From Batillaria attramentaria (lineage: Eukaryota; Mollusca; Gastropoda; Batillariidae), in the NCBI GenBank assembly GCA_018292915.2, contig JACVVK020000141.1, positions 1 through 64,000 of the forward strand: DNA of 64,000 nt, in the 5' to 3' direction. The notes beneath the pieces were generated by a model, which saw only the letters and a program-made list of their open reading frames with translations, made no database searches and was not told where the DNA came from. Both the position numbers and the translations under genes were made by a program. Each line of letters opens with the position of its first letter. Position 1 is the stretch's first letter. This document shows positions 3,369 through 51,700 of this stretch, piece after piece.

Positions 3369-3410
3369 AACACAAGACACTAAATCAGAAGGGGGGAATA
3401 CAACACCACC

Positions 3411-3416: not shown

Positions 3417-3543
3417 GAAACACAGAAAAACCTGGAAGAAACCTCCAGGTAAATCGGAGAATCTTCATGACCTTCAGGATTCTTCATTTTCAACAGTTTG
3501 GCTATTTCCCTGTCTGTCCTGGTTACTTTTTTTATGGACTTTT

Positions 3544-4045
3544 TGGCTCACTCGTGTAACAAAGTGAGTCTATGTAATAACCCTCCGTCGTCTGTCTGTG
3601 TGGGTGTCTGTCTGTGTGTCCGCAGTAAACCTGAACATTACCCTTTTCTGAGAATCTACAAATAGCAGAGACACCAAACTTGGCATGCTGATAGACTGTA
3701 GACAGCCATGAGAACTTTCGAAACATACCATATTGATTGACCTTGACCCAAGGTCAAAGTCACTAAAGCTGACTGTTGGGAAATTTTACATTGGCATTTT
3801 CTGAGAATCCCAAAAAGCCAGAGACATCAAACTTTGCATGATGATAGACATTGACAACATCTTTACTGACATACATGTATTCAGTGACTTTGAGTCAAGG
3901 TCAAGGCCATAAAAGCTGTTTTGCGGAAAACCTTTCAAAACCATAACATTGGCATTTTCTCAGAAACAATGAACAGCAGAGGCACCAAACTTGGCTTGCT
4001 GACAGACACCCGTAAGACATTTCAAAACATACCATATTGACTGAC
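3544..4045 (+). repeat. TCAAGGTCA-rich interspersed repeat, copy 2
   Basis: Starts TGGCTCACTCGTGTAACA and repeats the phrases of the 1-336 and 38625-39720 copies, here in plus orientation. Internal units carry GACCTTGACC...GGTCAAGGTCA blocks near 3740, 3890 and 4040. Copy 2 starts about 175 bp downstream of the receptor stop. Confidence 0.8.
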
Positions 4046-14038: not shown

Positions 14039-14563
14039 AAGAATAACTGAACTTTTAGATAAACATAGCTTTTTTAAGTTTCTGTGAGAAGCACCAGTCA
14101 AAAGAGTTCCAAATTTGCGATTTCATAAGTACAATCCAAGGTATTCTAGTCCACGTTTCACCAGCCCTCTAGATCTTCCAGATTTTATGTAAAAATTAAT
14201 TCAGTCAGGGAAGTCACAAAAGCAACAGGGAAATCACAAGACATGCACAAGCATCATCTGTGATACCACCAGTGTGAGGCTGACGTCAAACGCTTAGTTC
14301 ACAGACAAAATCAGCAAGTATCGTCACTGCCTCCGACATTTCACCAGCTCTCTAGATCTTCCAGATTTCATGTGAAAAATAATTCAATCGGGGAAGCCAC
14401 AAAGCCAACTAGGGAACTCACAAGACATAAAACAAGCATCCTCAGACGATCTCAGTGCTAGGGGTTGACGTCAAAAGTTTAGTTCACGGAATTGACGTCA
14501 TCTCTCTCTCTCTCTCTCTCTCTGTATGACGACCTGCCTGAGGCTGACGTCAAATGTTTAGCA

Positions 14564-23357: not shown

Positions 23358-23625
23358 AGGAGGAACGGCCCCGTCGTACAAAGTTGTTTCTCCAAACTTC
23401 ATTTTATTTTGTCTGTTTTGTTGTCGGTTCTCCCCTCTCCAAGTTCTACCAATGACACTAGATCCTCTACGACCTCGACCGATTAGCCACGTGACTGGGG
23501 GTGGGGGGTGGGGCCGGGTGGGGGAAGAAGGGAGAGAGAGAGAGAGGCAGAGAGAGAGGCAGAGAGAGAGGTTGGGTGGGTGGGTGTTTAGGAGTTAAAC
23601 GTCCTTTTCCACCACATAAGGGTGA
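23358..23625 (-). repeat. SINE composite, inverted copy, part 1 (interrupted)
   Basis: Reverse complement of 15120-15364, up to CACCACATAAGGGTGA. It is cut at 23625 by the LTR retrotransposon and resumes at 32047 after a duplicated GGTGA. Confidence 0.85.
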
Positions 23626-23828
23626 TGTGTTGTTCTCGCTCTCTTAGGCTCATAAACTCTCGCAAGAGATTCCACGTTTCTAAAACCGTTTATTCAGTTG
23701 GCTGCCATCTTGGTCCCATCTCGGGGCTTACAATTTCTCCGCGCAGGGAGTCCCCGGTCGTCTGCAACTTCCGGTTGGAAGAGTTCGTCTGCTAGACGCC
23801 AAGTGCCTACATGTACAATACCATGACA
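23626..23828 (-). repeat. 3' LTR of the gypsy element
   Basis: 203 bp, starts TGTGTTGTTC and ends CCATGACA on the plus strand; near-identical to 31842-32046. Confidence 0.9.
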
Positions 23829-24199
23829 TCCCCCTTTGTTTTGAGATAAATTGAAATTAAAATATATAGGAGACCTGTTATCATTGAGAGTCTTTAAAAA
23901 CATATATGGTCTCCCACAACTAAATCTTTAGTTATTGCAAATTACTTTATTTTGCAGGGATTGCCATGTTTTCAATTAAACTGAACTACCACAAATGAAA
24001 AGTCTTTGTCTTCCAGTCCACAGAGAGTTCTGCAATTCTGACTAGAATTCCACATTCACACAATGACAAAATACTTAAAATGATTCAATGTTTAGCGTGA
24101 CTAGTTTGGGAAAGAACAATAATACTAAAACTTGAACTTGGCACTGAAAAGTCTTTGCCCTGTAAACAGAGAAACTGAAATAATCGGTTTTCAGGAATT

Positions 24200-27076
24200 T
24201 TATTCATCCCTGTAACGGGCGGGTTTGATTATTGCCCGACCACTGCGGCTGCGTAACGGACTGGGTGTACTTAGAGGTGGTGCTTGTGGCTGTCCAGTAT
24301 CAGTCTGTCCCGTATCAGTCGCGGTCATCAGTGTCTCAGTCTCTGATGTTTGACTCTGAGCTGGCGGTGTGTTTTGGGTTGTACTGAATTTCGGTATGAC
24401 TGGTATGACTGGCCACGGTAGCTCAGTGCGCAACGGTGCTCGGTCAGATGTGTCAACGCGCAAGTTGCGGCGGTTTCTTCGGAGCTCACCTCTTTCTGTT
24501 TTGACCAAGTACGAGCGTGGAGCACATAATTTTATGACTTCTCCAGGCGTATTCCAACCTTTTTCCCGATCAGTTTTGACAAGAACCGGCTGTCCTGGTT
24601 TGAGTTCTGGCAGTGTTTGTGCACCGTGCCGCTTGTCGTAGTAGTGTTTCTGTTTCTGTTTTGCAACTTTGTCTCGCTCGCGGAAGACAGTTGGGTCAAT
24701 TGGTTTTGTGTCCAGGTTGATCGGTATGGTTGGGAGTGTAGTTCTGAGTTTCCTCCCGAAGGCTAACTCTGCTGGACTCGCGCCCAATTCTACAATGGGT
24801 GTTGCCCTGTATGTCAACAATGCGAGGAATGGATCGTCTTGTGTCAGGATCGCTTTCGCTAACTTGACACCATTTTCCGCCTTCCCGTTTGACTGAGGGA
24901 AGTGAGGACTAGACGTCATGTGAATGAAGTTCCACTCTTTTGCAAAATTCTGGAATTCTGCAGAAGTGAATTGCGTCGCATTGTCCGAAAATAGCACTTC
25001 TGGCACGCCATGATGCGAAAAGATGCTTTTCAGCTTGTACACAAGAACTGTTGTTGTTGTGGTCGGCAAGTAGACAATGTCAATGTACCGTGAGTAATAA
25101 TCGCTGTATGCCATGTAGTGTTCCCCTTCAATCTCGAGAAGATCAACGCCGACTTTTTGAAAAGCGCGGTCAGGTAGTGGTGTGGAAATCAGCGGTTCAC
25201 TTTTCTGAGCCGGCTGTTTCTGCAAACAGTGCTTGCATTTCGCGATTCTGTCTTTGATATCCGCATTAATTCCTGGCCACCAGACGGAATCTCTGGCTCT
25301 TTCGCGACATTTCGCTATCCCCAAGTGACCATCGTGAATGCGATCAAGGATTTCTTTTCTCTCGTCAAACGGAATTACAATCCGACTTCCACGGAGAAGC
25401 AGGCCATTGTACTCGCTCAACTCATCTCTGGCTTCATACAGCTCTCGGGCTGCTAATTTGACGTCCTCTTTGTACTGCGGCCACCCGTTCCGCGTGTACT
25501 CTAGTGCAGTGCTGAGATTGATGTCGGCAGCTGTTGCTTTTGCTAGAGTAGTGAGTTTCTGATCGGATGCTGGCCATGACGCTCGCACGGCGCCGACGTG
25601 TGCGTTCACGTCTTGTTCGAGTGTGTTAGTGTCTGGTCCTGTGAGTGGGCTACGTGAGAGTGTGTCTGCCACGACTAGCTTTTTGCCTGGTATGAACTCT
25701 GCTTTGATGTTGTGACGCATGAGACGCATCAACATTCTTTGGCATCTGACTGGGGTATCTATCAGGTTCTTTGTGTTGATCAGCGGGATCAACGGCTTGT
25801 GATCTGTCAAAAGTTTGACCTCGGGTAGGCCAACAAGATACCTCTCAAATTTCTGGCATGCGTTCACTGAAGCTAGAAGTTCCTTTTCTATCTGTGCGTA
25901 TCTGCGTTCAGTGTTTGTCAAACTGCGCGAACAGAACGCGACGGGTTTCAGTTCACCCTCATGGTCCTGGTATAGGACTCCTCCTAGTCCGTATTGACTT
26001 GCGTCAGAACAAACGACTGTAGGAAGTTGTGGATCGTAGAAAGCGAGTGATGGCGCTTGTGTGAGCAGCTCTTTCACTTCTGCGAATGCCTGGCGTTGGG
26101 GCGGTCCCCACGTCCATTCTGCGGTTTTGTGTAGCAGCTGGTTCAGTGGCTGCAGAACCGTTGAGAGATTTGGTAGGAAACGGCCAAGATAGTTCACCAT
26201 GCCCAAATACCGACGCAATTCCGGCACGTTCTGCGGCTCGGCCATGTCTCGGATGGCTGTGATTTTCGTCTCGTCTGCCTCGATCCCTTTTTTGCTGATT
26301 TTGTGACCCAGAAAGAGAATGTGGTCTTTCCCGAACTCGCATTTTTCTCGGTTGAGTTTGAGCCCTGCTTTCTGCACTCGGTCTAGAACCGTTTTCAACC
26401 TCTCATCATGTTCTTGTGTGTCTTTCCCCGCGATTCCAATGTCGTCCATGTAACAGACCACGCCCGGCACGTCACCGACGATGGACTCCATTGTTCTCTG
26501 AAAGACTTCCGGCGCAAGCGAAATTCCAAATGGCAATCTTCGGAAGAAAAATCTGCCAAAAGGAGTCATGAACGTGGTGAGTTTTGCGGACTCGGCTTCC
26601 AACGGAAGCTGCCAAAAACCGGATCGGGCATCGAGCTTCGAAAACACGGTCCCATTCGCGAATTTGTGCATCAACAATTGGAGTCGCTGTGCCAGTTCTC
26701 CGTCACGGACACCGGCCACCATTCGATCTCTGATTCTTTCGTCCTTGTCGGTGAAATCACATAACTGTGACAGATCTAGCAGCGCATGCACGTATTGTTC
26801 GATCGACTCGCCCTCCTGTTGGACTCTGGTATTGAATTTAGCCCTCTCGTGGATCAGATTCCTGATTCGACGAGGCAGAAAATGTTCAGTTAGGAGGCGA
26901 CACACTGTTTCATAGTCCTTCTTTGGGTCTGGAATTGCTTGTGTTGCAGCAGGAAATGTCAGATGTTCGAAAATGCGTTCTGCTTTCTCGCCCATAGAAT
27001 ATATAAGCGCGCTCACCTGGTCTTCTCCAGGCTTCCCATACAGCTGTGACGCTGATCGGTATCTGTCGAACCTCTG
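24200..27076 (-). pseudogene. Gypsy gag-pol polyprotein, internally deleted
   Basis: A long frame (Met at 27016, open upstream to the break at 27076). The gag part (IYSMGEKAERIF, LIHERAKF) passes in frame straight into reverse transcriptase near residue 114, so nucleocapsid, protease and the first RT motifs are missing. RT motif A (LDARSGFWQ, Asp about 119) and YMDD (about 179-182) are present. A gypsy-type RNase H follows (CSDASQYGLGG, LTDHKPLI), then an integrase zinc-finger region (HDGHLGI...CKHC) and the integrase core with VDLLEI, SDNATQF and SNGKAENG supplying the Asp, Asp and Glu. The integrase and RNase H look intact, but the deletion and the gag insertion make the copy non-autonomous. 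Found in genomes as a mobile element, not a host gene. Confidence 0.9.
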
Positions 27077-27085
27077 CTTCCAACT

Positions 27086-28682
27086 TAGTCATGGTCTCCT
27101 CTCTCCTGAAATCGAGAGTCATGGATCCTAGCGTAGAAAAAAAATTAACACATTAATATCTCTGTGGTGGCTGGACCAATATTTAAATACTGATAGGATA
27201 CAAGTGACGCTGAATAACGCTCCATGAAAATATACACTTTGGCCTTACAAGCTACCGTGCATGATTGAGTGGAAAATGCCCAACTCTAACACTGCGAGCT
27301 GAGGTTCGTCTGCTTGGCAGCCATTTGCATGGTGTCGGCGCATGCGTGCCTGAATAGAAAACCGCGGGAAAAGTCGGAGATTTCTAAAGGTGGGCAGATC
27401 AGACAAAAGCTGACAGAATAACAGGAATTGATGTAATATCTCTTTGTCAGTCTCAAAAACAGTTGGCTGAAAAATCTCACAGGTCCTGTACTGCTTTCTA
27501 CAAGCTTTTCTTAATCAGAAAACTCACTCAGCGAAAAGATTTTTCAACTAAAACGTAAGTCAGTTCAAGATCCCTCGAATCTGACAGGCCGGCATGCTGA
27601 TCCCTCCCAACCGCATAGCAGAAAGATCTACACAAACACACGAGATTTTTCTTAGATGACTGAACGAAATTTCTGATTACCACTGATTTGATGTGATCAC
27701 TGATCATCATGGTGTGAGTGTTTATGTTATGTCTCTCTAGATCTAGACTGTGAGCCGACAAGCAAATTCACGTGGAAGGATGGTAGTGAGGAGAAAGAAT
27801 AAAAGGAAAAAAGGGGGCGGGGCGTAAAATACGGCAAGCACTATTACACAGCTGCTGTACTTTTTAAACTTTACAAAATCACTGTCACATAATCCAGTGT
27901 GTTAAATTGTACGTGCAGTTTTGCTTTCCAGGGACAAGGTCGGTGTAAACTAGCATGCACAATCAAACGCAAAACAGTAATGGAAAACGTTGAATCTAAA
28001 CACTGAGATGATTTAAGTCCATCCCATACAAATCAAGACTGTCATCTTTTTTGTCCCTGTACTGTACACAGACGTATAGATCTATACGTCGATGGTACTG
28101 TACCAACATTGGCTGTCAAGAGCATTACATGTTTGGCAGCGTGAGCGGGGAAAACAGCAACATGGTTCAAACTGAAAATGTTGCCACTTCGCATTGTCAG
28201 ACTCTTGACGTCAATGGCACCACGCGCATCACGTTTGTATGTGGGCACTTGTTTTCAAATGTTTTTTCCTTTGGAGCGAAATGATCCAGTTTGCTGAAGT
28301 TGATCCGGCAATAAAATTGTATTGATGATCTTTGGTTTTCCCTCTGTTGTTGTATGTTTCTAAAAAGCATCCATGTCTGTGCTTGGGACTGCTGATAAGA
28401 CAGTCAAAACATGCTTGGTGAGTGGATGAGGATCTTTGTAAATTAGGCTTTTGGTTGTCCTTTGAGTTGGTCAGACCAGACACAGCGAATGGTCAAACAT
28501 CAGATTCCTGACCGGCGAAGGTTGTCCGATTTCATTTAAGACTTTTTTAATGTTTGGCAGATAGTACACATTGTATATTTTAATTCATATACAACTAGGT
28601 CTGTTGTACTGCAAACAAAAACGCATAAATGGGCACACTAACCGTATCTATTTATATTTTAGTATTATTTGTACTGTTTAAT

Positions 28683-28735
<53 letters not shown>

Positions 28736-29826
28736 TATAATGAGAAACATCGAAAGACGTAATGTTCAGGTAGTGTATGTTGAAATTTATCAGCCTTGTG
28801 ATTAGGACATCACTTGGAAGGTCACACATTATCAAACGTTTCCTTTTGTACATTTATTTCTAGACACATGTTGATCAGTCACAACACAAACATTTTGGCC
28901 AATGGGGACAAAGTTTACCATTCAGGTTGGAAACATGGCAGCACATGGAAACTGATCAGATTTAGGACTGACCATACAGTAATGTGTCATGATAAAAACA
29001 AAAACAAAACTAAATGCCATTTCTTTCAAATGTTACAACAGTGAAACAAGTGCTTGGACAACTAGCAAATTACAGATAACAGAAAATGTATACCTGAAAT
29101 ATATTCTTTAGATTCTCACTGTTCCTTCAGCCCTAGCCAAGTCAGATTCACACTTCAAACAGAGTTTAGTACTAAATGTATTTCAAAAAGGTGGGGATGG
29201 GGGTATGGCAGTTTGAATTGAGCGTCAAGTGTCTGATTAGATGAGGGAATTTTGGGACTGAATTTCACTAGTGTCAATACTGGAAAAGGTCTTGTCCTAT
29301 TACAACCGGCTTTGACATCACCATTATGGTAACAAAAGATAATTTTAATGAGGGAATTTTAGTGTCCAAGATGCCCGGTCTGTTGATCCTGAGGTACATG
29401 TAGCAGGTAACAATCCCATGGTAGGTAGGGATATCACTGGCGATTGCTTTCTGAGGGGATTTCATATCAGTTAAACACAGATTTAGGCCAGTTTAAGAAT
29501 ATGTAATCTTTGCTCTTAGTTTGTAGTACATGTACATGGATTCAACACAATAGAGGTTGTCTGGTACGCTTGTTGCTAACTTTAACATTAAAACAAAAAA
29601 GCAAAAGTGGACCTAACTAAACTTACCACTTGGTGTTGACTTGAATAATCGCCATGTTGAACATGATATTAGATGATGACACATTTGTAAACATATTTGC
29701 AGGAGCTGGTTGTTTTGAGCAGGACCTGGGCCTGAAATAAATGCATACATGCAGATCAAAGTGATGTTGTAACACACACACACACACACACGCACACGCA
29801 CACACACACACACACTTACCCCACAG

Positions 29827-29857
<31 letters not shown>

Positions 29858-31748
29858 GGTGATGGTGTGCATGGTTTCTCTTCAGTCCTCATTTGTACTG
29901 ATCTTGCATGATACATGTACTTCATAGACTGTTCAAACACACACAAAACACTTTGGTATACAACTGACTTGTACTGCACGCTTACTGAAATAGCTGCTGG
30001 TGAGTCTGACATGAGATCTATCTCTACACTGCCTGAGATCATACTTGCAATACCTATGTACAGACCAATGCCACAGCAAAATGCACACTGTGCCCTGCTT
30101 TTCAGTCCCCCCCCCCCCTTCCTGCTGCACCAATGCACACCTATCTCATCAGTGCTCTGCAATAACATGACAAAGTCCAGGGAAAAGAATATCCCAAGTG
30201 TCTATCATGTCACAGTCAGCAGGGGGAAAACACAGTAGGACCATGCTCACCTTCGTAGAATGGATACTGTCTGTGTATGTGATTATTAAAACTGCTGTGA
30301 GAGTCAGAATCTAATGCAGCACTCCCTCCAGTTTTACTCCGTTGCCTCCCAGTACTGCCTCTACTCATCCCTCTCCAACTTTCCTGGACTCCCTTCACAG
30401 TACACATCTTCCACACCCACCAGAACTCGACTGATTACAGTGATTAGTGTAGATTGATCACCTCCTACTTCCCATCATCAGAGTCATTTTCCTCCAATTC
30501 TTCTACATGCCCGAAGGAATCATGAAAACCGCCGTCCAAATCTACGAATCTTGCCACACTCTAATCTTCACTTTCTGCACCATTCCCCGGAATATTGAAC
30601 AAAATTCCACGATTATCCCCATTACGTAATGGTCGCGCGGCCATCTTGTTGATACGAAAATCTAAAGTAGATTTTCACACGAACATTTATAGAAACGTAA
30701 AACCACTCGTAGATAAATATTGCTGTTTGATGTAAGGAGCGAGACCGCGTCCTTCGACTTTGCGAAACTATTCAGAATATCCCAGGTAAACCACTGAATA
30801 TTTCGCTAACGTCATATTTTGAGAAAATTGATTCTCGCCTGCCAAAGTCGCTGACGTGTTCTACACGGTAGCTGAGGAAGCAGTAGACAAGAAATGCAGT
30901 AATTCTGAGTTATACAAACGCCACCAGCGACATTTTGAAGTACAATCCGATAGCAGTATGTTACTGGTATGAGTGATCGAGTGCGAACATTTCAAGATAA
31001 TAGATAGATCTGGTTCCTGCCTAGTCTGAACAAATTTAGTAACTGCAGACATGTATCCGTAAAGGCTTTCTTTGAAACTTGAAGCAGGCTTTTCAGTTCT
31101 AGCATTTAAAGGTCTAAAACCACTCTAGTCAGTGTCCTAAAATAGTCGGCTGCTAAGACAAAGGTATCAGTGACGCGACGTTACTTTGCTTGTCGGCTCA
31201 CACGCTTCCTTGTCGGACTCAGACGACAATCTGTCTAAACTGACAGAGATCATGTTGTTTTGAAATAAAGGGGGAAAATGGACGTACAAATACAGTACAC
31301 TCAAACACACTGCTTACCTTCAACCACGACGAAGAAATCACAACGCGGATTGAGACTGATTGAGGAAGTATCCGTGTTAGTATCCTTTCGTGAAAAATGT
31401 CGCAGGAAAGTGCGCGCGGGTTGGTGTGAGGTCAATTGGGAGATAATTAAAACATGGAAGATAACTCTGAAATAACAATGAGTTCATTCCCTTCAGTTTT
31501 CGCTGTGCGCCATAAGGGATCCCATTCTAACTTCCGCAGACGGCCGGTTGAAGCCGTGAACATTTCAATCAAGTTCAGCTATAAACATCATCGTACAGCT
31601 TAGGTACGCTGTCAGTTTTCTTATATTAGCCTGACGTTTTCCTGTGCCATAGCCACCACGAAAAAAATGTAGCCACCAAAAAGTTTCTTCGCTTGGATCC
31701 CTGACCCAGGATGTGACTTCCCCGATCACTCATGGGTTACCCGGACTA
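27086..31748. mobile_element. Candidate Pack-type DNA transposon (4.66 kb) nested in gag
   Basis: The 9-bp sequence CTTCCAACT flanks the insert (27077-27085 and 31749-31757), and the gag frame is continuous when the insert is disregarded. Both ends begin TAGTC, and 10 of the first 14 bases agree. A subterminal block GGATCCNAGCGNAGAAA occurs inverted at both ends (27123, 31684-31700), as does TGTGAGCCGACAAGCAAA (27749, 31188-31205). A 9-bp duplication with inverted ends points to a Mutator-like or similar cut-and-paste transposon. No transposase is visible. The interior 28362-31130 is an inverted copy of 47314-50224 with exon-like blocks and their introns. Confidence 0.6.
28362..31130 (-). repeat. 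Inverted copy of the 47314-50224 segment
   Basis: Long, high-similarity reverse complement of 47314-50224, including (CA)n tracts (28685-28732, 29774-29815), an A-run at 29832, and exon-like blocks. On the minus strand these are a MAARPL start near 30652, a block ending PFYE before a GTGAGC donor (about 30250), and an acceptor-bordered block with QPAPANMFTNVSSS ending before GTAAGT (about 29625-29730). The start block carries an in-frame TAG after GAESED, shared with the other copy. Confidence 0.8.
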
Positions 31749-31814
31749 CTTCCAACTAGGCCACTCTGCAGGCCTATCAAAGTTAAATTCTGCTGGAGGC
31801 TTGAACGAAGGCAT
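31749..31814 (-). pseudogene. N-terminal gag fragment of the gypsy element
   Basis: ATG at 31814, 28 bp downstream of the 5' LTR. The 22 residues have the same style as the gag that starts at 63648 (Met-Pro, Phe, Pro-Pro, later Trp-Pro-x-Trp-Lys). The frame stops at the insertion border and resumes at 27076. Confidence 0.8.
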
Positions 31815-31841
31815 TCTGTTATGCTTTTACCGCTGCCACCA

Positions 31842-32046
31842 TGTGTTGTTCTCGCTCTCTTAGGCTCATAAACTCTCGCAAGAGATTCCACGTTTCTAAA
31901 ACCGTTTATTTCAGTTGGCTGCCATCTTGGTCCCATCCCTGGGGCTTACAATTTCTCCGCGCAGGGAGTCCCCGGTCGTCTGCAACTTCCGGTTGGAAGA
32001 GTTCGTCTGCTAGACGCCAAGTGCCTACATGTACAATACCATGACA
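31842..32046 (-). repeat. 5' LTR of the gypsy element
   Basis: 205 bp; same sequence as 23626-23828 with about two small indels and a few substitutions, suggesting a fairly recent insertion. Confidence 0.9.
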
Positions 32047-32640
32047 GGTGATATCAAAGACGGGGCAACGAGAAAAAGGCCAGCACAAATATTTGGCCCC
32101 AGCGGCCGGGATTCGAACTCTCGGCCCAAGCATTAAAAGTCCAACGCTCTACCATTCGGCCACCCTGGCTCCCCAGAGAGAGAGAGAGAGAGAGACGTCA
32201 GTTCCGTGAACTAAACATTTGACGTCAGCCTCAGGCAGGTCGTCATACAGAGAGAGAGAGAGAGAGAGATGACGTCAATTCCGTGAAATAAACTTTTGAC
32301 GTCAGCCTCTAGCACTGAGATCGTCTGAGGATGCTTGTTCATGTCTTGTGATTTCCCTGTTGGCTTTGTGACTTCTCCGACTGAATTTTTTTCACATGAA
32401 ATCTGGAAGATGTAGAGGGCTGATGAAATGTCGGAAGCAGTGACGATACTTGCAGATTTTGTCTGTGAACCAAACATTTGACGTCAGCCTCACGCTGCTC
32501 GTCTGACAGATGCTACTTCTGCATATCTTGTGATTTCCTTGTTGCTTTTGTGACTTCCGTTACTGAATTAATTTTGACATAAAATCTGGAAGATCTAGAG
32601 AGCTGATGAAACGTGGACTTAAGTGCCTTGAATTGTACTT
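32047..32640 (-). repeat. SINE composite, inverted copy, part 2
   Basis: Resumes at the duplicated GGTGA with the tRNA-like head (minus; B box near 32107, A box near 32155), then (GA)n and two GACGTCA-containing blocks matching 14040-15000 reversed. Together with 23358-23625 it was one repeat before the LTR element arrived. Confidence 0.8.
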
Positions 32641-32689
32641 ACGAAATCTTGAAGTGGAAAATGCCTGCCTTCTGTTCGAGACAACACAG

Positions 32690-40922: not shown

Positions 40923-43900
40923 CAGATATCAAAACCTAATCCCTCAAAGGAAACTCATACACACTTGGGCCCTGCGCTGTACACGAAAATTAATCCGTGC
41001 TGGCTCAAAATCCCTGATGTCCTCCTCTGCGTTTCCTTCAGGGTCCTTAAAGGGCAAAAAAAAAAAACCAAAAAAAAAAAACAAGCACAAATGAACAAAC
41101 ATCATAACTACAGTCAAACTTTGAAGCAATGATGATGATGATGATGAATATAATGATGGAATAAGCAGCTAGCACAGTACTTTATCAAGCCTTACCAACA
41201 GTAACTATGTGTAAAAGAGGAGCAATGAAAACAATAGAAAGAAAGGTCACAAGAACACTTCCCCTAACCACCCCCCCCCCCCCCCCACACACACACACAA
41301 ACACAAGACTTACATGATGATGTACTGGAATACTGACTGAATGTGTCTCCCCACTTCCATTTGAGGTCTATAAAGAATAAATTTGAGTATATTTCCTTGA
41401 GACTCTTTGACAACATATACGCAACAGAGGGTTATTGGTGGGGAGATGGGGTGCATGCATGGGAGATGGATGTTCTATGAAGAAGTGTCAGATGTCACCA
41501 AGATGGTGGCAAGTGCTTCAATTTACAGTTGCATGAAACTTTTGATTGAACCTTTCTTTTTTCCTTTCAAAGTAAGGATATTTTTTACAAAAAATATTTA
41601 AAAATAATGATTCCCAGTGTCCTGGGACAATGTCACTCTTGTATTCAGAATAACTGAAGAATTCAGAATGCTTAGATAAAAAAATAATAACTCTGAGAGT
41701 GTAATGCCTTCCATTTTTTTTACCCCCCCCCCCCCCCCACACACACACACACACACAAAACTCTGAAAATTAACAAAGAAAAGTTAGATACTAATTTCTT
41801 TGTCGGTAAGACTTCCCAAACGTAAAAGAAAATACACACTTTCAGGCTCATGCTGTATCTTCAGTTTAAATGAACACATATGATGGCACTGAATGCCACA
41901 ACGGTAAACGGAAAGCCACAAACCAGAACAATATTTTTGTTGGTTTTTTTTTTTTTCAGTTATTAGTATCAGTTGAATTACATGTTCTTGAGCTGCAATT
42001 ACGCGATAAAACTAGAGTAAAGCTGCACATACACTGGTCGAAGCAGCAAGTCTTCCATCACCAAAGTGTGAGGTTCCCGGTAGTGGTACAGGTACATATT
42101 GTTGACAAGAAGTCTCAGCCATCTAGAGAACGAAAAGACAACCTTAAAAATGACAAAGCAGTTATGCATGAAACATTTCATGAAAAAGGAAAATGTACTT
42201 GTCTAAATTACAGGACATGTCAGCGCAAATATCTGCCAAGGAATAAAATGATTTTGTGAGAGTATACTATAGGGATAAGTTGTCAATCCCCCCCCCCCCC
42301 CCCCCCAAAAAAAAATTTTTTGGAAGCTAATGATCCCACCTCAGTAGTATGTTTTGGAAACAAGTCCTTACATCTCCCCGAACAAGCATTAACAAAATTT
42401 AAAAAAAAAAACTTCCACTGCCATTATTTTGTGGCATTAGTTGAAGGTGTTTGATCACTTGGTCCTGCAGACCATGTGACAAGAAAGAAAAAATCTTAAC
42501 ACAATATGACTTTGAAAAGTTAGATACTAATTTCTTTGTTGGTAAGACTTCCCAAACGTAAAATAAAATACACACTTTCAGGCTCATGCTGTATTTTCAG
42601 TTTAAATGAACACATATGATGGCACTGAATGCCACAACGGTAAACGGAAAGCCACAAACCAGAACAATATTTTTTTTTTTTTTTTTTTTTCAGTTATTAG
42701 TATCAGTTGAATTACATGTTCTTGAGCTGCAATTACGCGATAAAACTAGAGTAAAGCTGCACATACACTGGTCGAAGCAGCAAGTCTTCCATCACCAAAG
42801 TGTGAGGTTCCCGGTAGTGGTACAGGTACATATTGTTGACAAGAAGTCTCAGCCATCTAGAGAACGAAAAGACAACCTTAAAAATGACAAAGCAGTTATG
42901 CATGAAACATTTCATGAAAAAGGAAAATGTACTTGTCTAAATTACAGGACATGTCAGCGCAAATATCTGCCAAGGAATAAAATGATTTTGTGAGAGTATA
43001 CTATAGGGATAAGTTGTCAATCCCCCCACCCCCCCCCCCCCCCCCCAAAAAAAAAAATTTTTTGGAAGCTAATGATCCCACCTCAGTAGTATGTTTTGGA
43101 AACAAGTCCTTACATCTCCCCGAACAAGCATTAACAAAATTTAAAAAAAAAAACTTCCACTGCCATTATTTTGTGGCATTAGTTGAAGGTGTTTGATCAC
43201 TTGGTCCTGCAGACCATGTGACAAGAAAGAAAAAATCTTAACACAATATGACTTTGAAAAGTTAGATACTAATTTCTTTGTTGGTAAGACTTCCCAAACG
43301 TAAAATAAAATACACACTTTCAGGCTCATGCTGTATTTTCAGTTTAAATGAACACATATGATGGCACTGAATGCCACAACGGTAAACGGAAAGCCACAAA
43401 CCAGAACAATATTTTTTTTTTTTTTTTTTTTTTCAGTTATTAGTATCAGTTGAATTACATGTTCTTGAGCTGCAATTACGCGATAAAACTAGAGTAAAGC
43501 TGCACATACACTGGTCGAAGCAGCAAGTCTTCCATCACCAAAGTGTGAGGTTCCCGGTAGTGGTACAGGTACATATTGTTGACAAGAAGTCTCAGCCATC
43601 TAGAGAACGAAAAGACAACCTTAAAAATGACAAAGCAGTTATTCATGAAACATTTCATGAAAAAGGAAAATGTACTTGTCTAAATTACAGGACATGTCAG
43701 CGCAAATATCTGCCAAGGAATAAAATGATTTTGTGAGAGTATACTATAGGGATAAGTTGCCAATCCCCCCCCCCCACCCCCCCAAAAAAAAAAAAAAAAA
43801 AAATTTTGGAAGCTAATGATCCCACTTCAGTAGTATGTTTTGGAAACAAGTCCTTACATCTCCCCGAACAAGCATTAACAAAATAAAAAAAACAAACTTC

Positions 43901-46886
43901 CACTGCCATTATTTTGTGGCATTAGTTGAAGGTGTTTGATCACTTGGTCCTGCAGACAATGTGACAAGAAAGAATAAATCTTAACACAATATGACTTTGA
44001 CAAGCTGAGGCAATGCTGGCAGCGGCACAGGATGAAACAGCTCAGGTTTTCTTTATAAAGAAAGCAAACATGTTAGAAAAAGACAATTCTGTAATTTTTC
44101 AAAGAAATTACCTGTGGGCGCACAAAAATCTTTGCTCGCGGGCCAAGGATGGCCTTAAGCGTACGCATGTCGTGCGCCATATTCACAGCACACAGGGCAC
44201 CATTCTGCAGAAAACAGATCTCAAAAAAGGAACCTGTCAGGTGCGGAAATGCCTGCAGTAAAGCTCTCCGCAGACCATCAGACGAGGCTTTCCTCTTCAC
44301 TTTGATTGTTCTGCGGGCTGCAAGTACACCAAATATATATATATAAACTATGTACATTGTACAAAACATCTGTACATTAAAACAATTTACATGGACTTCA
44401 TAATTATAATTTCTCACCAAGACATCCAACAACCCCAACACCAAGGAACTAATCTCTCATTTGTTTCAGATTCATATTTTTAAAACAATGTTATGTATGC
44501 CAAGGCTCAGAAATGGAGTCTGCATGTGTGCAGTACTTCTGGGACTACTGCCTGGGACCTGATCGTTGAACAAAGAATTTAAATTAAGGGCTGAAAGAGT
44601 CTTGGATACTTATTACCATTTACTTGTGGGGACACCCTCAATGAAAAGCTGTATGACTCACGCATTGTACATGTATTACTCTTCATTTCTTTATTCTCTT
44701 TACAATAAAAACTTGAGTACTATAAACGTACAGTGAGAACAGCCAGGAATGACTCACAGAATGAAGGCACAACAGCACTAAGGTGTTGATGTTAAGGCCA
44801 AATAAAAAAAATAGTTGTGGTTAGGGTCACCCGACCGACCCTATTCTGACACCCCCCCCCCCCCCCTAACTTTTTTCCCCTGGGTATTAAAAAAAAAAAA
44901 AAAAAAAAGCCATCGCGGTATCACTGAGCGTTTCGGGCCCCAAAGTAGGCTTTCTGAAACAAGGGATGCTACTCTTTCAAGAGATATTGGTTGAAATACA
45001 AAAGTGTTGTTTATTCTTATCTGTGTGTTTCACATTGCTGCAATCATATCAGTGTCCTTCCACAATATATGTGTGACAGTTCATGAAGATATGTGAGATG
45101 GCTACCGACTGAATCTTTCATATCTTATTGAGAGAGAGAGTATCTACAGAACTTGTTCTGCCCGGAATAATATGACTTGACTGGGAAGAATGAAAAAGTT
45201 GAAAAAGAACATGACATGGCAAAGATCAAATGAAAATAAAGAAAGAGGTTGAATTGGGCTTTTGAGTGTTTAAATTTCAAGCAGGGGTTATGAAAGCTGA
45301 AAAATCTTGCTAGTCCGTCGGGCTAGCAAGATTTAAAACCAACTAGCCCGAAACCATTTCCACTAGCCCCAAAATACATTTTGTCAGAGAGAGAGAGAGG
45401 CGGGGAGAAACCACTCTGCACTCACTGAGGTTTTTTATGGAGAGTTGTAGCGAGTGGTTCGCGCTAAAAATAGTTACTCTCACCGCAACGTCACAACAGA
45501 AACTAAGAGAGAGAGAGAGAGAGGGGCTCGCTAACAGTACCTTGTGCATTCAGCTCTGTGAAAATAGAGCAAGCTTTGCCTCATAATCTCAACTAGTCCG
45601 GCGGGCCAGTGGTAAAACATTTTAACTAGTCTGATGGTATTTTCACTAGTCCGTGGGCTGTCGGACGAGTCTTTTCATAATCCATGTCAAGCTGAAATTT
45701 TAAATATTAATATTCTAGCGAAAAAGGATTTTTTCCTTTGGGGTTGCCATACTACCATTACAAAAAAACATTCAACACACCAATCATTAATTCATACATG
45801 AAATATGGAAGTTAAAATAAATCATATGAAAACAAAAGGCATAAAAAGTCGTGTTTAGGGTAACGTGTTATGAATAAAATGGTTCCGGTTCAGTCTCCAT
45901 GTCCAAAACAACTAAAAATAATTTTAAAAATTAGAAAAAGTCAAAGCCTACCTACCCTAATTTTCTTTTGATCATGTTACCCTAACCACAACTATTTTTT
46001 TTTTATTTGGCCAAATAAATGACAAGATGGACAAGCCGAGATGTAACTTGAAAGAGTTGATTGCTCAATTAGTCAATACAATCTTTTTAAACAAAAGGAG
46101 CCCATTATTTGTTAGTTCTGCACTGCTTAGGCATTGTTGGAAAACACTTACCACAGATGAGTTTGTTGCCCTTCAGCTCCCCAGGCTTTACTACCTGGCG
46201 AAATGTCCTCAGCAGTCGAATGTGCAAGGTGTATGTTCCCTCTGGCCTCTTTCCTGACACCTCTTTCTGTACACCTCCGTGTTGCCTCATAGACTGGAAT
46301 CTGAAAAAGGGACAGTGAAGGTGAAGGTCTGTCTTTGATTACAGTCAAATGTAACACTACCTTTCAATTCTGCCCCCCCCCCCCCCCCCCAAAAAAAAAA
46401 AATAAATAAATAAATAAAAAAAAAAAAAAATTCAAGCATGAACATGTTTAGGACTTCGGTGAAATCTGGCCTTGTGCTGAAAGAATTATATTCTTAATGT
46501 AGTGACCCTACGGACTAATATACATAGAGATGTCATGGCTTCACCAGTGTTCCGACCTACTACTAGTAGCAGTACTATTACATTATCATGAGTACGTGTG
46601 TTCTGTGTGCAGTGTCCTTGACACCGGCGTCACACCTTCTACACTCGACTAAATCATGCTTTAGAACACGAAGTTGACGAACACAAAAAACACGCATGCT
46701 GTTTCACAAAAAAGAACCGAAGACAGACGATGCAGACGTTGACTAGCCGATTACAGGGGAAGAAAAGGAGTTAGCTGAAGTAGACACTTACTGCTGCACG
46801 AAAGAAACTTCCAAATCGTTGTCATGTTCATCAAGTTCCATGCCACGGAGGTGGCCTACCATCTCGTGGAATCGTGTGGCTGCCAT
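32943..46886 (-). CDS. HECT-type E3 ubiquitin ligase-like gene (14 exons, 3' end not found)
   Basis: Exons in order on the minus strand: 46886-46792, 46300-46152, 44317-44112, 43599-43510, 42856-42767, 42122-42033, 41045-40965, 40728-40651, 39798-39733, 38254-38156, 35699-35604, 35209-35129, 34157-33979, 33117-32943. All junctions agree in phase, and most donors are GTAAGT, GTATGT or GTGAGA. The N-terminus holds a compact basic module (RRTIKVKRK...FEICFLQNGALCAV), then Ser/Pro linkers, a UIM-like EQDRAYNASL, a Glu/Gln-rich coil, and finally QDIKVSRDPPGELLRQAL with YKRRAFDARK, which resembles the start of a HECT domain. If right, it would transfer ubiquitin to substrates; the catalytic Cys lobe is not in view. 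The last exon has a weak donor (GTCAAT) and is followed by about 9 kb of nested repeats, so the gene may be truncated. Confidence 0.6.
33118..33978. other. Intron 13 of the HECT-like gene
   Basis: Joins phase 2 to phase 2. At 33863-33869 a 7-nt GACTGCG lies between TTTCAG and GTAAGTGG on the minus strand and looks like a micro-exon, but inclusion would break the phase. No other feature is seen. Confidence 0.4.
33979..34157 (-). CDS. Exon 13 of the HECT-like gene
   Basis: 179 nt, bordered by CTAAACAG and GTAAGT. Encodes LRNWIGSQDGATRYFRISLH and further PPSWLMHDMSLREMGI; ends in phase 2 with GA, completed by T of the next exon. Globular, not a linker; family not recognised. Confidence 0.6.
35129..35209 (-). 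CDS. Exon 12: Glu/Gln-rich coiled-coil exon
   Basis: 81 nt, phase 0 at both ends, bordered by TTTTGCAG and GTACAT. Encodes AMSQQLEEEQRQAAQQEQAE and EEEALQE, a likely charged helix. Confidence 0.65.
35604..35699 (-). CDS. Exon 11: UIM-like exon
   Basis: 96 nt, phase 0, bordered by GTCTACAG and GTGAGA. Encodes GSGIDNGG and then RAEQDRAYNASLFIDRMR. EQDRAYNASL has the acidic-Ala-Ser-Leu look of a ubiquitin-interacting motif. Confidence 0.65.
35834..37988 (-). mobile_element. I/Nimb-like LINE, 5'-truncated, with 14-bp target duplication
   Basis: The duplication TTTTTTGTTCATAT lies at 35820-35833 and 37989-38002. The 3' end carries a short (GAA)n tail next to it. The element sits in the intron between exons 10 and 11 of the HECT-like gene, in the same orientation as the gene. 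The endonuclease and early reverse transcriptase are absent, the usual outcome of incomplete reverse transcription. Confidence 0.9.
35871..38000 (-). pseudogene. LINE reverse transcriptase plus RNase H frame
   Basis: A 709-codon frame that opens in the flanking target duplication. RT text: FIDLSKAFDKVWKDGLLLKL, REGVPQGGVISPTLFV and the catalytic HADDFAMW (about residue 157). A separate RNase H follows, with NTDGSA (about 457), RAEVNALREA, LTDCRSVIQ and PAHCGLTGNEEADRLA. RT followed by RNase H is typical of the I superfamily; Nimb elements of snails are the closest style I know. Uninterrupted, hence young, but lacking its N-terminal endonuclease. Confidence 0.85.
38156..38254 (-). CDS. Exon 10 of the HECT-like gene (Ser/Pro-rich linker)
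   Basis: 99 nt, phase 0, bordered by GGTTACAG and GTATGT. Encodes IDSLPSPTAPVRESVPMLHS followed by HPTSAAFTSGIIP. Likely disordered linker. Confidence 0.6.
38325..38414 (-). mobile_element. Truncated SINE insertion, 90 bp, with 12-bp target duplication
   Basis: AAGCACAGAAAG at 38313-38324 and 38415-38426 flanks the block. The inside is the reverse complement of the SINE segment from TTTGTGCTGG to CACCCACCC, lacking the pol III head. Confidence 0.8.
38625..39720 (-). mobile_element. TCAAGGTCA-rich element, full-length copy with short TIRs
   Basis: Left end TGGCTCCCTTGTGACACA and right end (reverse complement) TGGCTCCCTTGTGTAACA are inverted ends. Inside are about seven tandem units of roughly 145 bp, each with a GACCTTGACCTT or GGTCAAGGTCA block (near 38643, 38770, 38900, 39040, 39187, 39340, 39485), then a (CA)n/(CAGA)n tract. 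It lies in the intron between exons 9 and 10, its right end 12 nt from the exon 9 splice donor. No target duplication is obvious. Confidence 0.75.
39733..39798 (-). CDS. Exon 9 of the HECT-like gene
   Basis: 66 nt, phase 0, bordered by TCTCCACAG and GTATGT. Encodes VTPLNSPSIDLMTGTQDDSA followed by EE. Ser/Asp-rich linker. Confidence 0.6.
40081..40590. mobile_element. MITE-like element, 510 bp, TIRs of about 38 bp
   Basis: TTGCCCCAGTGAGTTTGCCT at 40081 pairs with the reverse complement of 40553-40590, continuing through CACGTGACTCCCAAGT with few mismatches. Non-coding. Target duplication not clear. It lies in the intron between exons 8 and 9. Confidence 0.75.
40651..40728 (-). CDS. Exon 8 of the HECT-like gene
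   Basis: 78 nt, phase 0, bordered by TTTTTCCAG and GTAAGT. Encodes QNLTSRPPRRQAAVAGRLQV followed by REWAGR, a basic segment. Confidence 0.65.
40965..41045 (-). CDS. Exon 7 of the HECT-like gene
   Basis: 81 nt, phase 0, bordered by CCTTTAAG and GTGTGT (weaker sites). Encodes DPEGNAEEDIRDFEPARINF followed by RVQRRAQ. Confidence 0.55.
42033..42122 (-). CDS. Exon 6 (third copy of the 90-nt repeat exon)
   Basis: Thirty codons, phase 0, bordered by CGTTCTCTAG and GTATGT. Encodes MAETSCQQYVPVPLPGTSHF followed by GDGRLAASTS. Identical to the copies at 42767 and 43510. Confidence 0.55.
42767..42856 (-). CDS. Exon 5 (second copy of the 90-nt repeat exon)
   Basis: Same sequence and splice borders as 42033-42122; phase 0 at both ends, so inclusion of one, two or three copies keeps the frame. 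Confidence 0.55.
43510..43599 (-). CDS. Exon 4 (first copy of the 90-nt repeat exon)
   Basis: Same sequence as the other two copies; follows exon 3, which ends in phase 0 before GTAATT. Confidence 0.55.
44112..44317 (-). CDS. Exon 3: basic N-terminal module of the HECT-like gene
   Basis: 206 nt, entered in phase 1 (G + CC), ends in phase 0. Encodes ARRTIKVKRKASSDGLRRAL, then FPHLTGSFFEICFLQNGALC and RTLKAILGPRAKIFVRPQ. Looks like a folded small domain; family not recognised. Confidence 0.7.
44796..46012. mobile_element. TIR element, 1.2 kb
   Basis: GGCCAAATAAAAAAAATAG at 44796, continuing TTGTGGTTAGGGT, is matched inverted at 45978-46012. The interior holds three CTAGYCC-type short repeats near 45310-45660 and (GA)n runs. 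Non-coding. It lies in intron 2 of the HECT-like gene. Confidence 0.75.
46152..46300 (-). CDS. Exon 2 of the HECT-like gene
   Basis: 149 nt, entered in phase 2 (CA + A), ends in phase 1 with G. Encodes FQSMRQHGGVQKEVSGKRPE and TYTLHIRLLRTFRQVVKPGE, ending KLIC. Borders CTTTTTCAG and GTAAGT. Confidence 0.7.
46792..46886 (-). CDS. Exon 1 of the HECT-like gene
   Basis: 95 nt from ATG to GTAAGT, encoding MAATRFHEMVGHLRGMELDE and HDNDLEVSFVQ. This ATG has a purine at -3 and G at +4; the frame stays open upstream into the TCGCGA repeat, which is unlikely to be coding. An inverted CCAAT box lies near 46970. Confidence 0.7.
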
Positions 46887-47029: not shown

Positions 47030-47300
47030 CAGTTTTGTCGCGACAAAAAAATGGCTTGTAAGTTTTCGCGAAAAAACTGCCACCTTTTTTGTCGCGAAAA
47101 AATTGACTGCACAAGAGAATTTTTTCGCCAAAAAATGGCCATAAATTTTCTTCAGAAAATAGTATGCTTTTTTTTTCGTGAAAAACGATTTTTTCGCAAC
47201 AAAATCTTTTTTTTGCGAAAAAATGCTATTTTTTCGCGAAAAAAAAAACGTTTTTGTCGCGAAAAAACGGATTTTTCGCGAAAATATGGATTTTTGTCTG
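47030..47300. promoter_or_regulatory. Cluster of TTTTCGCGAAAA palindromes
   Basis: About ten TCGCGA or GCGAAAA motifs (for example near 47037, 47063, 47090, 47213, 47231, 47256, 47272) separated by T- and A-runs. TTTCGCGAAA resembles the E2F palindrome. The tract starts about 145 bp upstream of exon 1 of the minus-strand gene and ends at the border of the 47314-50224 segment, so it sits between two divergent start candidates. Function is inferred only. Confidence 0.5.
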
Positions 47301-47313
47301 GAATTGCCAATCA

Positions 47314-48709
47314 TACTAGAGTGGTTTTAGATCTTTAAATGCTAGAACTGAAAAGCCTGCTTCAAGTTTCAAAGAAATCCTTTACGGATACATGTCTGCA
47401 GTTACTCAATGGTACAGACTAGGCAGGAACCAGATCTATCTATTATCTTGAAATGTTCGCACTCGATCTCTCATACTAGTAACATACTGCTATCGGATTG
47501 TACTTCACAATGTCGCTGGTGGCGTTTGTATAACTCAGAATTACTGCATTTCTTGTCTATTGCTTCCTCAGCTACCGTGTAGAACACGTCAGCAACTTTG
47601 GCAGGCGAGATTCAATTTTCTCAAAATGTGACGTTAGCGAAATATTCAGTGGTTTAGTACTTTACTGACCTGGGATATTCTGAATAGTTTCGCAAAGTCG
47701 AAGGACGCGGTCTCGCTCCTCACATCAGTCAAACAGCAATATTTATCTACTAGTGGTTTTAAGTTTCTATAAATGTTCGTGTGAAAATCTACTTTAGATT
47801 TTCGTATCAACAAGATGGCGGCGCGATCATTAAGTAATGGGGATAATCGTGGAATTTTGTTCAATATTCCGGGGAATGGTGCAGAAAGTGAAGATTAGAG
47901 TGTGGCAAGATTCGTAGATTTGGACGGCGGTTTTCCTGATTCGTTCGGGCATGTATAGAATTGGAAGAAAATGACTGAGACTCTGATGATGGGAAGGAGG
48001 AGGTGATCAATCTACACTAATCAGTCGAGTTCCGGTGGGTGTGGAAGATGTGTACCAAAGACCTTGGAATCAGAAATATGTTTCCAAGATCTTTGATGTG
48101 TACTGTGAAGGGAGTCCAGGGAAGTTGGAGAGGGATGAGTAGAGGCAGTACTGGGAGGCAACGGAGTAAAACTGGACGGAGTGCTGCATTAGATTCTGAC
48201 TCTCATAGCAGTTTTAAAAATCACATACACAGACAGTATCCATTCTACGAAGGTGAGCATGGTCCTACTGTTTTCCCCCTGCTGACTGTGACATGATGAC
48301 ACTTGGGATATTCTTTTCCTTGGACTTTGTCATGTTATTGCAGAGCACTGAACAAACCAGTATGCTAGACAGATAGGTGTGCATTGGTGCAGCAGGAAGT
48401 GGGGGGAGTGGGGGGGGGGGGCTGAAAAGCAGGGCACACTGTGCATTTTGCTGTGGCATTGGTCTGTACATAGGTATTGCAAGTATGATCTCAGGCAGTG
48501 TAGAGATAGATCTCATGTCAGACTCACAAGCAGCTATTTCAGTAAGCCTGCAGTACAAGTCAGCTGTATACCAAAGTGTTTTGTGTGTGTTTGAACAGTC
48601 TATAAAGTACATGTATCATGCAAGATCAGTACAAATGAGGACTGAAGAGAAACCATGCACACCATCACAATTTTTTTTTTTTTTTTTTTTTTTTACAGAT
48701 CTGTGGGGT

Positions 48710-48740
<31 letters not shown>

Positions 48741-49857
48741 ACAACATCACTTTGATCTGCATGTATGCATTTATTTTAGGCCCAGGTCCTGCTCAAAACA
48801 ACCAGCTCCTGCAAATATGTTTACAAATGTGTCATCATCTGATATCATGTTCAACATGGCGATTATTCAAGTCAACACCAAGTGGTAAGTTTAGTTAGGT
48901 CCACTTTTGCTTTTTTGTTTTAATGTTAAAGTTAGCAACAAGCATACCAGACAACCTCTATTGTGTCGAATCCATGTACATGTACTACAAACTGAGAGCA
49001 AAGATTACATATTCTTAAACTGGCCTAAATCTGTGTTTAACCGATATGAAATCCCCTCAGAAAGCAATCGCCAGTCATATCCCTGCCTACCATGGGATTT
49101 AAACCTGCTGCAGGATCTACAGACCGGGCATCTTGGACACTAAAATTCCCTCATTAAAATTATCTTCTTTTTTTACCAAAATGGTGATGTCAAAGCCGGT
49201 TGTAATAGGACAAGACCTTTTCCAGTTTTGACACTAGTGAAATTCAGTCCCAAAATTCCCTCATCTAATCGGACACTTGACGCTAAATTCATACCCCCGC
49301 CCCCACCTTTTTGAAATAAATTTAGTACTAAACTCTGTTTGAAATGTTTGTAGGTGTGCTGGTTGGTTGTATGTTTGTTTGTACTGCTACATTTTCATTT
49401 TGAAAGTATAACACTGAAACAAAGTAGACACAATATAGTGTGAATCTGACTTGGCTAGGGCTGAAGGAACAGTGAGAATCTAAAGAATATATTTCAGGTA
49501 TACATAATCTGTTATCTGTAATTTGCTAGTTGTCCAAGCACTTGTTTCACTGTTGTAACATTTGAAAGAAATGGTATTTAGTTTTGGTTTTGTTTTTACC
49601 ATGACACATTACTGTACGGTCAGTCCTAAATCTGATCACAGTTTCCATGTGCTGTCATGTTTCCAATCTGAATGGTAAACTTTGTCCCCACTGGCCAAAA
49701 TGTTTGTGTTGTAACTGATCAACATGTGTCTAGAAATAAATGTACAAAAGGAAACGTTTGATAATGTGTGACCTTCCAAGTGATGTCTTAATCACAAGGC
49801 TGATAAATTTCAACATACACTACCTGAACATTAAGTCTTTCGCTGTTTCTCATTATA

Positions 49858-49910
<53 letters not shown>

Positions 49911-50224
49911 ATTAAACAGTACAAGTAATACTAAAATATAAATAAATACGGTTGGTGTGCCCATTAATGCATTTTTGTTTGCAGTACAACAGACCTAGTT
50001 GTATATGAATTATGTGTACTGTCTGCCAAACATTAAAATAAAGTCTTAAATGAAATCGGACAACCTTCGCCGGTCAGGAATCTGATGTCTGACCATTCGC
50101 TGTGTCTGGTCTGACAAACTCAAAGGACAACCAAAAGCCTAATTTACAAAGATCCTCATCCACTCACCAAACATGTTTCGACTGTCTTATCAGCAGTCCC
50201 AAGGCACATACATGAATGCTTTTT
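47314..50224 (+). repeat. Segment with exon-like blocks, inverted relative to 28362-31130
   Basis: Exon-like blocks on the plus strand: a start AAGATGGCGGCGCG at 47814 (MAARSLSNGDNRG, then an in-frame TAG after GAESED); a block ending HRQYPFYE before GTGAGC at about 48251; and a block after TTTTATTTTAG at 48780-48884, with QPAPANMFTNVSSS and FNMAIIQVNTK before GTAAGT. The two copies differ by few residues in the last block, but both carry the TAG, so coding capacity is uncertain. Microsatellites (TG)n occur at 48714-48740 and 49860-49907. Confidence 0.75.
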
Positions 50225-51700
50225 ATGTTGTTTCCATAGTAATGGAAACAACATCATAGGACGGGCTAAATTTTCCACGTTCATGGGCAAGCATCTGTGG
50301 TACAAACGCACGTCACTGCCGATCTCCCGCAGAGACGATTTTGCAAATGTAACTCTGACAATGACGTAAGAAACGTGCGTCATCGATGCTGACATGTACG
50401 GTGCCCCGAACGCGCTTCTCCTCAATGAGTGCCGTCTGTGCGTATGTGTGTGCGTGCGTGCGGCTGTGTGTGTGTGTGAATTGTGTCCAGGCCCGTTTCT
50501 TCGAAAATACTCAACCGAATGGCTTCAAATTTGGGGTATCCAAATATATCAAAATGTTACATTAGAGGAACCAAGCGTGTGATGATTGCTTAAGTGATTT
50601 GGGAGTTATCGCCCTTTTGAGACAAGTTGGTTGTCTTTCGTGTACAGGCGTAATATTTATTTAAATCACTCAATTTTTTGGCAGTAGATAGCTTGAATAC
50701 GGACTCTGAACACAATCACTACTAGAAAATGGTCGCTCTTATAGTTTTTATGTAAACCGAGCCTGAGTTGACATTGCATGTGAACCCAGTTCAGATGCCT
50801 ATTTCTCCGAAAATACTGAACCGATCGATTTCAAATTTGGGGTTTCTAAATGAATCAAGATTGTTGAATAGAAGGCCCGATCCAGGTACGATTGCACACA
50901 TGATTTGCGAGTTATCGCCCTTTTCAGAAAAAGTGGCTTTCTGGCGTTTAATGGCGTAATATTTACCTAAACCACTCCATTTTTTGAACATAGATAGCAT
51001 GAATACGGACTCTCAACTAAATGAATTTTGGAGGTTGTCGCTTTTATACTTTTGGCGTAAGCCGTACCTGATGAAAGTGCTGGTGAACACACTTAAGATC
51101 TCAAAATCGCTCCAACTATACATAGACAATGAGCCTGGGGTGCCATAAAAAATGTACAAAAAAATTCACTGCAGCCGTTATCGTCAGTTGACTCGAAAAT
51201 TTGTACTCACAGCACATTTCCTCTGCAAGCCACACGCCTCACAAACATCGAAGAAGAGACGCACGCGCACTGACGTAAAGTAAGTGCGTCATGTTTGATT
51301 GACGTGATGCTGTTTTTGCTTGGGGGTGTCTCGCCACTTTCTTTCCGAATTCCTCTGTTTGGAGACGTGGTGTATTTTACTTCTACTATGTCGCCATCTT
51401 CGTGCAATCGCAGAGAAGACGCGGTATACAACAGAATACAACTCCAATACTTTATGAACAGAATATGCTGTCAGGAACCAAATATCAGTGTTTTTCATAG
51501 GTGACAAACATTAGATGATAACACCGCCGTTGGTGCAAATATTTTGTGTGAACATGCTTTGGTTCGTGTTTCCTGACATAATACTGAACTGTATTTCCCA
51601 AGACACAGCGTTTTTGTGTCACCGGGATCCCTTTTCCCACGTGCAACTCGGGCCACTGTATCTGGAGTTTTAGCGCCCGGCTCAAATATGAGGATGGGTC
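50225..51700. repeat. Tandem pair of about 300-bp units with flanking hairpins
   Basis: Two direct units (about 50490-50790 and 50791-51090) share CGAAAATACTGAACCGAT-type text, TTCAAATTTGGGGT, GAGTTATCGCCCTTTT and GAATACGGACTCT. Similar hairpin blocks TGACGTAA...GTGCGTCAT stand at 50361 and 51273. No gene is seen. Confidence 0.6.

Follow-up and report, generated by a model that had tools for sequence, protein, structure and literature searches.

Does the insertion at positions 27086-31748 of contig JACVVK020000141.1 of the gastropod Batillaria attramentaria (assembly GCA_018292915.2) carry a captured gene? An initial annotation of the 64,000-nucleotide stretch analysed here (positions 1 to 64,000 of the contig, hereafter the window) had proposed so, in describing a Pack-type DNA transposon with gene-like cargo nested in a long terminal repeat (LTR) retrotransposon. 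The DNA transposon, its Mutator-like 9-bp duplications and its nesting are upheld by the present analysis, whereas the captured gene cargo is not. The insertion is very probably one young member of a high-copy, non-autonomous family with terminal inverted repeats, probably Mutator-like, whose long copies, as far as examined, have one shared interior without coding signal.

Ends and flanking duplications of the insertion

The insertion and its terminal features lie as follows.

27086..31748, plus strand: whole non-autonomous DNA transposon, 4663 bp; 30 of 30 loci start within 3 bp; 20 long copies aligned
27077..27085: left 9-bp target-site duplication, CTTCCAACT
31749..31757: copy of this duplication on the right, CTTCCAACT
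27086..27175, plus strand: left imperfect terminal inverted repeat (compared stretch), TAGTC at start
31649..31748, minus strand: right imperfect terminal inverted repeat (compared stretch), GACTA at end
27749..27773, plus strand: left subterminal 25-bp inverted block, beginning TGTGAGCCGACAAGCAAA
31178..31202, minus strand: right subterminal 25-bp inverted block

The terminal features noticed in the initial annotation were all recovered. The same nonamer, CTTCCAACT, stands on both sides of an element that begins with TAGTC and ends with GACTA, and the two 25-bp subterminal blocks, located 663 bp (left block) and 546 bp (right block) from the respective ends, match in inverted orientation at 92%, with a score of 40 that exceeds all 200 base shuffles of 800 bp (best 33.5). 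The terminal inverted repeats, of about 100 bp, are imperfect: comparison of the first 90 bp of the element with the reverse complement of its last 100 bp gives a local score of 29, against 22 for the best of 500 base shuffles. Each tip pattern has a single match in the window, where 0 are expected.

A high-copy family with 9-bp target-site duplications

The genome searched was the window's own assembly (715 Mb, 863 contigs). With the left 715 bp as a query, all 40 matches scored, out of 1354 first-look candidates, run end to end at 97-100% identity, and in each of the 30 loci cut out (window included; individual loci bear L numbers below) the match begins within 3 bp of the TAGTC tip, the flanks being different. 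With up to 3 mismatches allowed, the left tip (a 43-mer) has 141 genome matches, an interior 54-mer 242 and the right tip 997, the reversed control giving 0 in all three cases. Among the matches listed, 83 perfect left tips lie on contigs C1-C251, and for 71 of them a perfect right tip of like orientation is listed within 25 kb, which reveals a multi-copy family where other loci bordered by both ends had been anticipated. The paired tips span 4399-4786 bp in 54 of these 71 cases and 5.1-22 kb in the other 17, few of which were read; a listed perfect interior match pairs with 58 of the same 83 left tips.

The 9-bp duplications expected at other copies were also found. Among the 20 long copies read, 16 have an exact 9-bp duplication and one (L035) a duplication agreeing at 8 of 9 positions, while three have none, L038 agreeing at 1 of 9, L039 running into N and L050 being without the right tip. 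In addition, the joined flanks of 17 long copies and of L060, a miniature inverted-repeat transposable element (MITE) presented below, were compared with the window and with loci L034-L062. An uninterrupted related empty site exists for 5 of these 18 insertion sites (L035, L037, L040, L042 and L045), with 188-200 of 200 bases matching, a tally that leaves out the partial overlap of L044 and L048, visible from both; L045 is inserted within an older relative of itself. Fixed ends, duplications of constant length accompanied by empty sites, and imperfect terminal inverted repeats are what characterises class II elements of the terminal-inverted-repeat type. That the duplication and the similarity of the ends would be coincidental, through segmental duplication or mere chance, is exceedingly improbable: a second, inverted copy does lie just 16 kb away in the window, but such a coincidence is refuted by the 17 of 20 copies whose duplications agree at 8 or 9 positions, together with the 5 empty sites out of 18.

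A repeat present in the window at 14119-14561 and 32211-32648 is a recurrent target of the transposon family. Copies of it harbour L035, L037 and L042 and, by eye, also the micro-form L062 described below; L042 and L062 adjoin the same GTTTATGTC.

Age of the family

The young set comprises the window copy and 18 of the 20 long copies, L038 and L039 being left out as a diverged subfamily, and its 19 members differ by a median of 0.87% over 171 pairs. L048 and L049 show no substitution over 4653 bp and 2 gap events, L042 and L043 a single one in 4702 and L052 and L053 a single one in 4685, such near-identical pairs having 2-4 gap events each. The partners of these pairs lie on separate contigs and have different duplications. 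As judged from these sequences, the lack of substitutions between L048 and L049 at different duplications thus indicates that the family transposed very recently. Older copies are present too, with identities to the window copy of 90-98% depending on the piece.

One shared interior and its coding content

Between the ends lies the stretch in which the gene-like cargo had been seen.

27309..31498: interior of about 4.2 kb, absent from the MITE, common to the young copies, no coding signal
28686-28732 and 29772-29815: (CA)n arrays in the interior

This one interior is common to 19 of the 19 young copies aligned, L041 and L047 carrying extra insertions, and the same interior occurs in the older copies read. 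By eye, blocks with splice-like borders can be discerned on its minus strand. No Pfam family passed the cut-off in 20 of the 63 listed stop-to-stop open reading frames (ORFs), the sole match in the 20 scanned (15 bits against a cut-off of 22) being taken as chance, and the 294-residue chain of gene-like blocks has no protein relative at E <= 1 among 225 candidates. Coding content was further assessed in seven gene-like blocks, each in 9-12 copies, by counting distinct changes at codon positions 1, 2 and 3.

30480-30660: substitutions 4, 8, 4; frame-breaking indels 3 of 3
30241-30434: substitutions 6, 2, 3; frame-breaking indels 4 of 4
29623-30201: substitutions 28, 27, 24; frame-breaking indels 38 of 45
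29627-29732 (within 29623-30201): substitutions 3, 4, 1; frame-breaking indels 3 of 3
29274-29492: substitutions 5, 11, 4; frame-breaking indels 1 of 5
28229-28492: substitutions 5, 3, 5; frame-breaking indels 6 of 8
30861-31124: substitutions 7, 7, 8; frame-breaking indels 14 of 15

There is no third-position excess of distinct substitutions in these seven blocks, most distinct indels break the frame in six of them (29274-29492 being the exception), and every block has stops in at least one copy. The exon-like blocks of the initial annotation therefore show no coding constraint across copies. With no Pfam family over cut-off in the 20 ORFs scanned, no protein relative, no third-position excess and frame-breaking indels, the interior was rejected as a coding gene, and so was, on the seven blocks in 9-12 copies, the presence of a recognisable gene fragment made of coding exons.

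These data bear directly on the Pack-type interpretation, according to which the interior is gene-derived, intron-containing genomic DNA that was captured between the ends and then amplified. Its supporting points are the splice-like borders mentioned above, the open state of block 30241-30434 in 9 of 12 copies, the existence of Pack elements in animals (PMC8277862) and an abundant MITE with similar tips that is without the interior, so that a MITE-like ancestor plus an insert is possible. However, the occurrence of one interior throughout the 19 young copies aligned and the older copies read, the lack of coding constraint and of a protein relative in the above tests, and the lack of a single-copy parent among 8 further interior copies read, of 242 matches, speak against it, and we regard it as unlikely. 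The interior may go back to a very old capture; a scenario in which a MITE-like ancestor captured host DNA long ago, a step for which a template switch at the TTCG of the break points described below is a possibility, and was then amplified to more than 100 copies is likewise given little credence.

With regard to cargo, the comparison comprises the 19 young copies with one interior, the MITE forms without it, and the 17 of 71 listed tip pairs longer than 5 kb, few of which were read. The excess of right-tip matches (997, against 242 for the interior and 141 for the left tip) was considered as a sign of members with different cargo and set aside as not decisive, since two short forms account for 14 and 15 matches at 3 mismatches, since a MITE query gave 1934 first-look candidates (40 scored), and since long copies of greater age can have more than 3 mismatches to the left-tip and interior patterns. 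Twelve listed right tips have no listed left tip or interior, and the four of them that were read correspond to two copies with the same interior and two short forms.

The inverted partial copy

A second copy of part of the interior lies in the window itself.

47315..50225, minus strand: older fragment of the element, without its ends (element positions 1276-4044)

The 2.8 kb of interior noted as being also present, inverted, 16 kb away is indeed there: 28361-31129 matches 50225-47315 at 90-95% identity. In a tree, the fragment falls between the young clade and an older group, a position that alone would leave a parent role possible. At its upper border (50226) the fragment meets the edge of another repeat. 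L037 and L055 contain that edge too, which in L055 interrupts the element at position 4534, and the body of this repeat also occurs in L044 and L048. The fragment is thus best read as a truncated family copy and not as a source gene, and it was rejected as a parental locus given the 242 genome matches of the interior, its coverage of only positions 1276-4044 and its edge adjoining a repeat. Five interior matches that have no listed left tip, L054-L058, were also retrieved. L055, L056 and L057 match the element from positions 408, 494 and 413, at the edge of the fetched DNA, to 4534, 4663 and 4663, respectively, while L054 and L058 carry long insertions, the match of L054 ending at 3562. Together with L059, L061 and the fragment at 47315-50225, they make up the 8 further interior copies read, of 242 interior matches, all of which are family copies or fragments and none a single-copy parent.

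The adjoining repeat, of about 1.2 kb (50226-51470), contains a palindrome (TGTTGTTTCCATAGTAATGGAAACAACA) close to the edge at 50226, and adjoins several family copies besides interrupting L055. On the other side of the fragment, an array of TTTTCGCGAAAA-like palindromic units occupies 47030-47300.

Short forms and the origin of the interior

The MITE L060 shares both ends of the window element.

27086..27308, plus strand: left end common to MITE L060, 75% identical
31499..31748, plus strand: right end common to MITE L060, about 90% identical, the MITE being without 32 bp within

L060 is 440 bp long and has a perfect 9-bp duplication, GGTCAGTGC. It unites stretches 1-223 and 4414-4663 of the element, the junction lying at a TTCG found at both break points (27305-27308 and 31499-31502 in the window). 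Of the 1934 candidates of the MITE query, 40 were scored, and each of these covers positions 6-435 of 440 or more; one of them is L060 itself and the 39 others show 86-88% identity. L062, of about 80 bp, is a micro-form made of the two tips.

The structure of the MITE raises the possibility that the long element is a decayed autonomous one, the interior being what is left of a coding region that belonged to the family and the MITE an internal-deletion derivative. The TTCG at both break points and the further 32 bp gone are as expected of deletions, and the subterminal inverted blocks are located inside the interior. Nevertheless, no transposase domain was found in the 20 scanned ORFs, and PF10551, the MULE (Mutator-like element) domain of Pfam, occurs at none of the listed element places, so that such an origin appears rather doubtful to us.

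Superfamily assignment and search for a transposase

The 9-bp duplications and the imperfect inverted ends suggest that the family is probably Mutator-like. The duplication falls within the 8-11 bp that are given, along with ends of 14-500 bp, as MULE traits in PMC6446971. Under this assignment, a transposase encoded elsewhere would bind the tips and would move the element in trans by staggered cutting and 9-bp fill-in, and the interior would be non-coding filler that had become fixed in a master lineage ahead of the latest burst.

Several observations weigh against the view of the insertion as a non-autonomous, Mutator-like element devoid of coding signal. In the interior, block 30241-30434 is without a stop in the 9 of 12 copies already mentioned, and in block 29274-29492 just 1 of 5 distinct indels breaks the frame, older copies holding extra stops. 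As for the enzyme, PF10551 has 13 matches genome-wide, none of which lies at an element place among the left-tip, interior and right-tip matches listed. Nothing similar to the tips is present in two 1.5-kb stretches (L063 and L064) beside one of these 13 MULE matches, although the ends may lie beyond them, and a PF03108 search gave 0 matches, its controls being equally silent. The autonomous copy with a transposase that the initial annotation had suggested looking for was thus not found in the 20 of 63 ORFs or, by PF10551, at the listed element places. As no transposase is linked to the element in these ORFs, the 13 PF10551 matches and the two 1.5-kb stretches at one of them, the Mutator label rests on duplication length and end structure. 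It is conceivable, though not what we favour, that the element is a non-autonomous member of another superfamily likewise making 9-bp duplications: the TAGTC tip and the modest terminal repeat are not diagnostic, and no MULE transposase is linked to these ends, whereas duplications of 8-11 bp with usually long inverted ends are described as MULE traits in PMC6446971.

Relation to known elements

The window element resembles non-autonomous animal MULEs in its 9-bp target duplications, its imperfect inverted ends and its many transposase-less copies, but differs from MULEs in that no transposase is linked to it, that its inverted ends, of about 100 bp, are degenerate, and that its left and right tips differ. 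The likeness to MITEs derived from DNA transposons lies in the similar tips that bound the 440-bp MITE and the micro-form of about 80 bp, whereas the window element is ten times longer. With respect to gene capture, PMC8277862 reports 370 Pack-TIRs (Pack-type elements with terminal inverted repeats) in 100 animal genomes, and four multi-copy cases; it lists no Pack-MULE for these reference genomes and describes Ssk-FB4, from Drosophila populations, as one. Pack-MULEs and animal Pack-TIRs such as Ssk-FB4 share with the window family a non-autonomous nature, duplications of 9-10 bp, a long interior and multiple copies; unlike those described there, the window family has one shared interior without coding signal, 141 left tips and no parental gene found.

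No description of this transposon family was met in listings of the literature on related elements or in the two papers cited here, which does not establish that the family is unpublished; the window element adds a case to a kind of transposon that is already well known. Its interest lies in a very recently mobile, long and apparently enzyme-less animal DNA transposon family with matching short (MITE) and long forms, and in the way gene-like anatomy and a nearby second copy can mimic gene capture when a repeat is actually involved. If the interior were captured host DNA, the family would represent, for animals, a rare instance of Pack-type amplification to a high copy number.

The host LTR retrotransposon

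The element is inserted in a retrotransposon with the following limits.

23626..32046, minus strand: host LTR retrotransposon, 5-bp duplication GGTGA at 23621-23625 and 32047-32051
23626-23828 and 31842-32046: LTRs of the host retrotransposon, 203 and 205 bp

The two LTRs differ by 1 substitution and 2 single-base gaps. The minus-strand frame of the retrotransposon occupies 24200-27088 to the left of the insertion; to its right, 31749-31814 reads MPSFKPPAEFNFDRPAEWPSWK, whose final three codons are the duplication and equal the SWK that opens the left part of the frame. The gag frame is thus continuous outside the insertion, in agreement with the initial annotation, and, since it runs 19 codons ahead of the duplication on the far side, the transposon inserted close to the start of gag in a retrotransposon that is itself young.

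The minus-strand frame passes from gag-like sequence straight into reverse transcriptase. Since RVT_1 is matched only from profile position 59 and no protease match at E <= 0.001 was found in the frame, this retrotransposon copy looks internally deleted.

Other features of the window

Two plus-strand blocks at 59897-62070 have repeated C..HPGF..VCL motifs and, by eye, look like what we take to be paralogous P2X7-C-terminal-like genes; they have no Pfam match at E <= 1. At 54283-57363, a 1026-residue minus-strand open frame with endonuclease and reverse-transcriptase domains is a non-LTR retrotransposon frame without stops. Finally, 41778-44004 holds three tandem copies of a unit of about 745 bp, with 96-98% identity.

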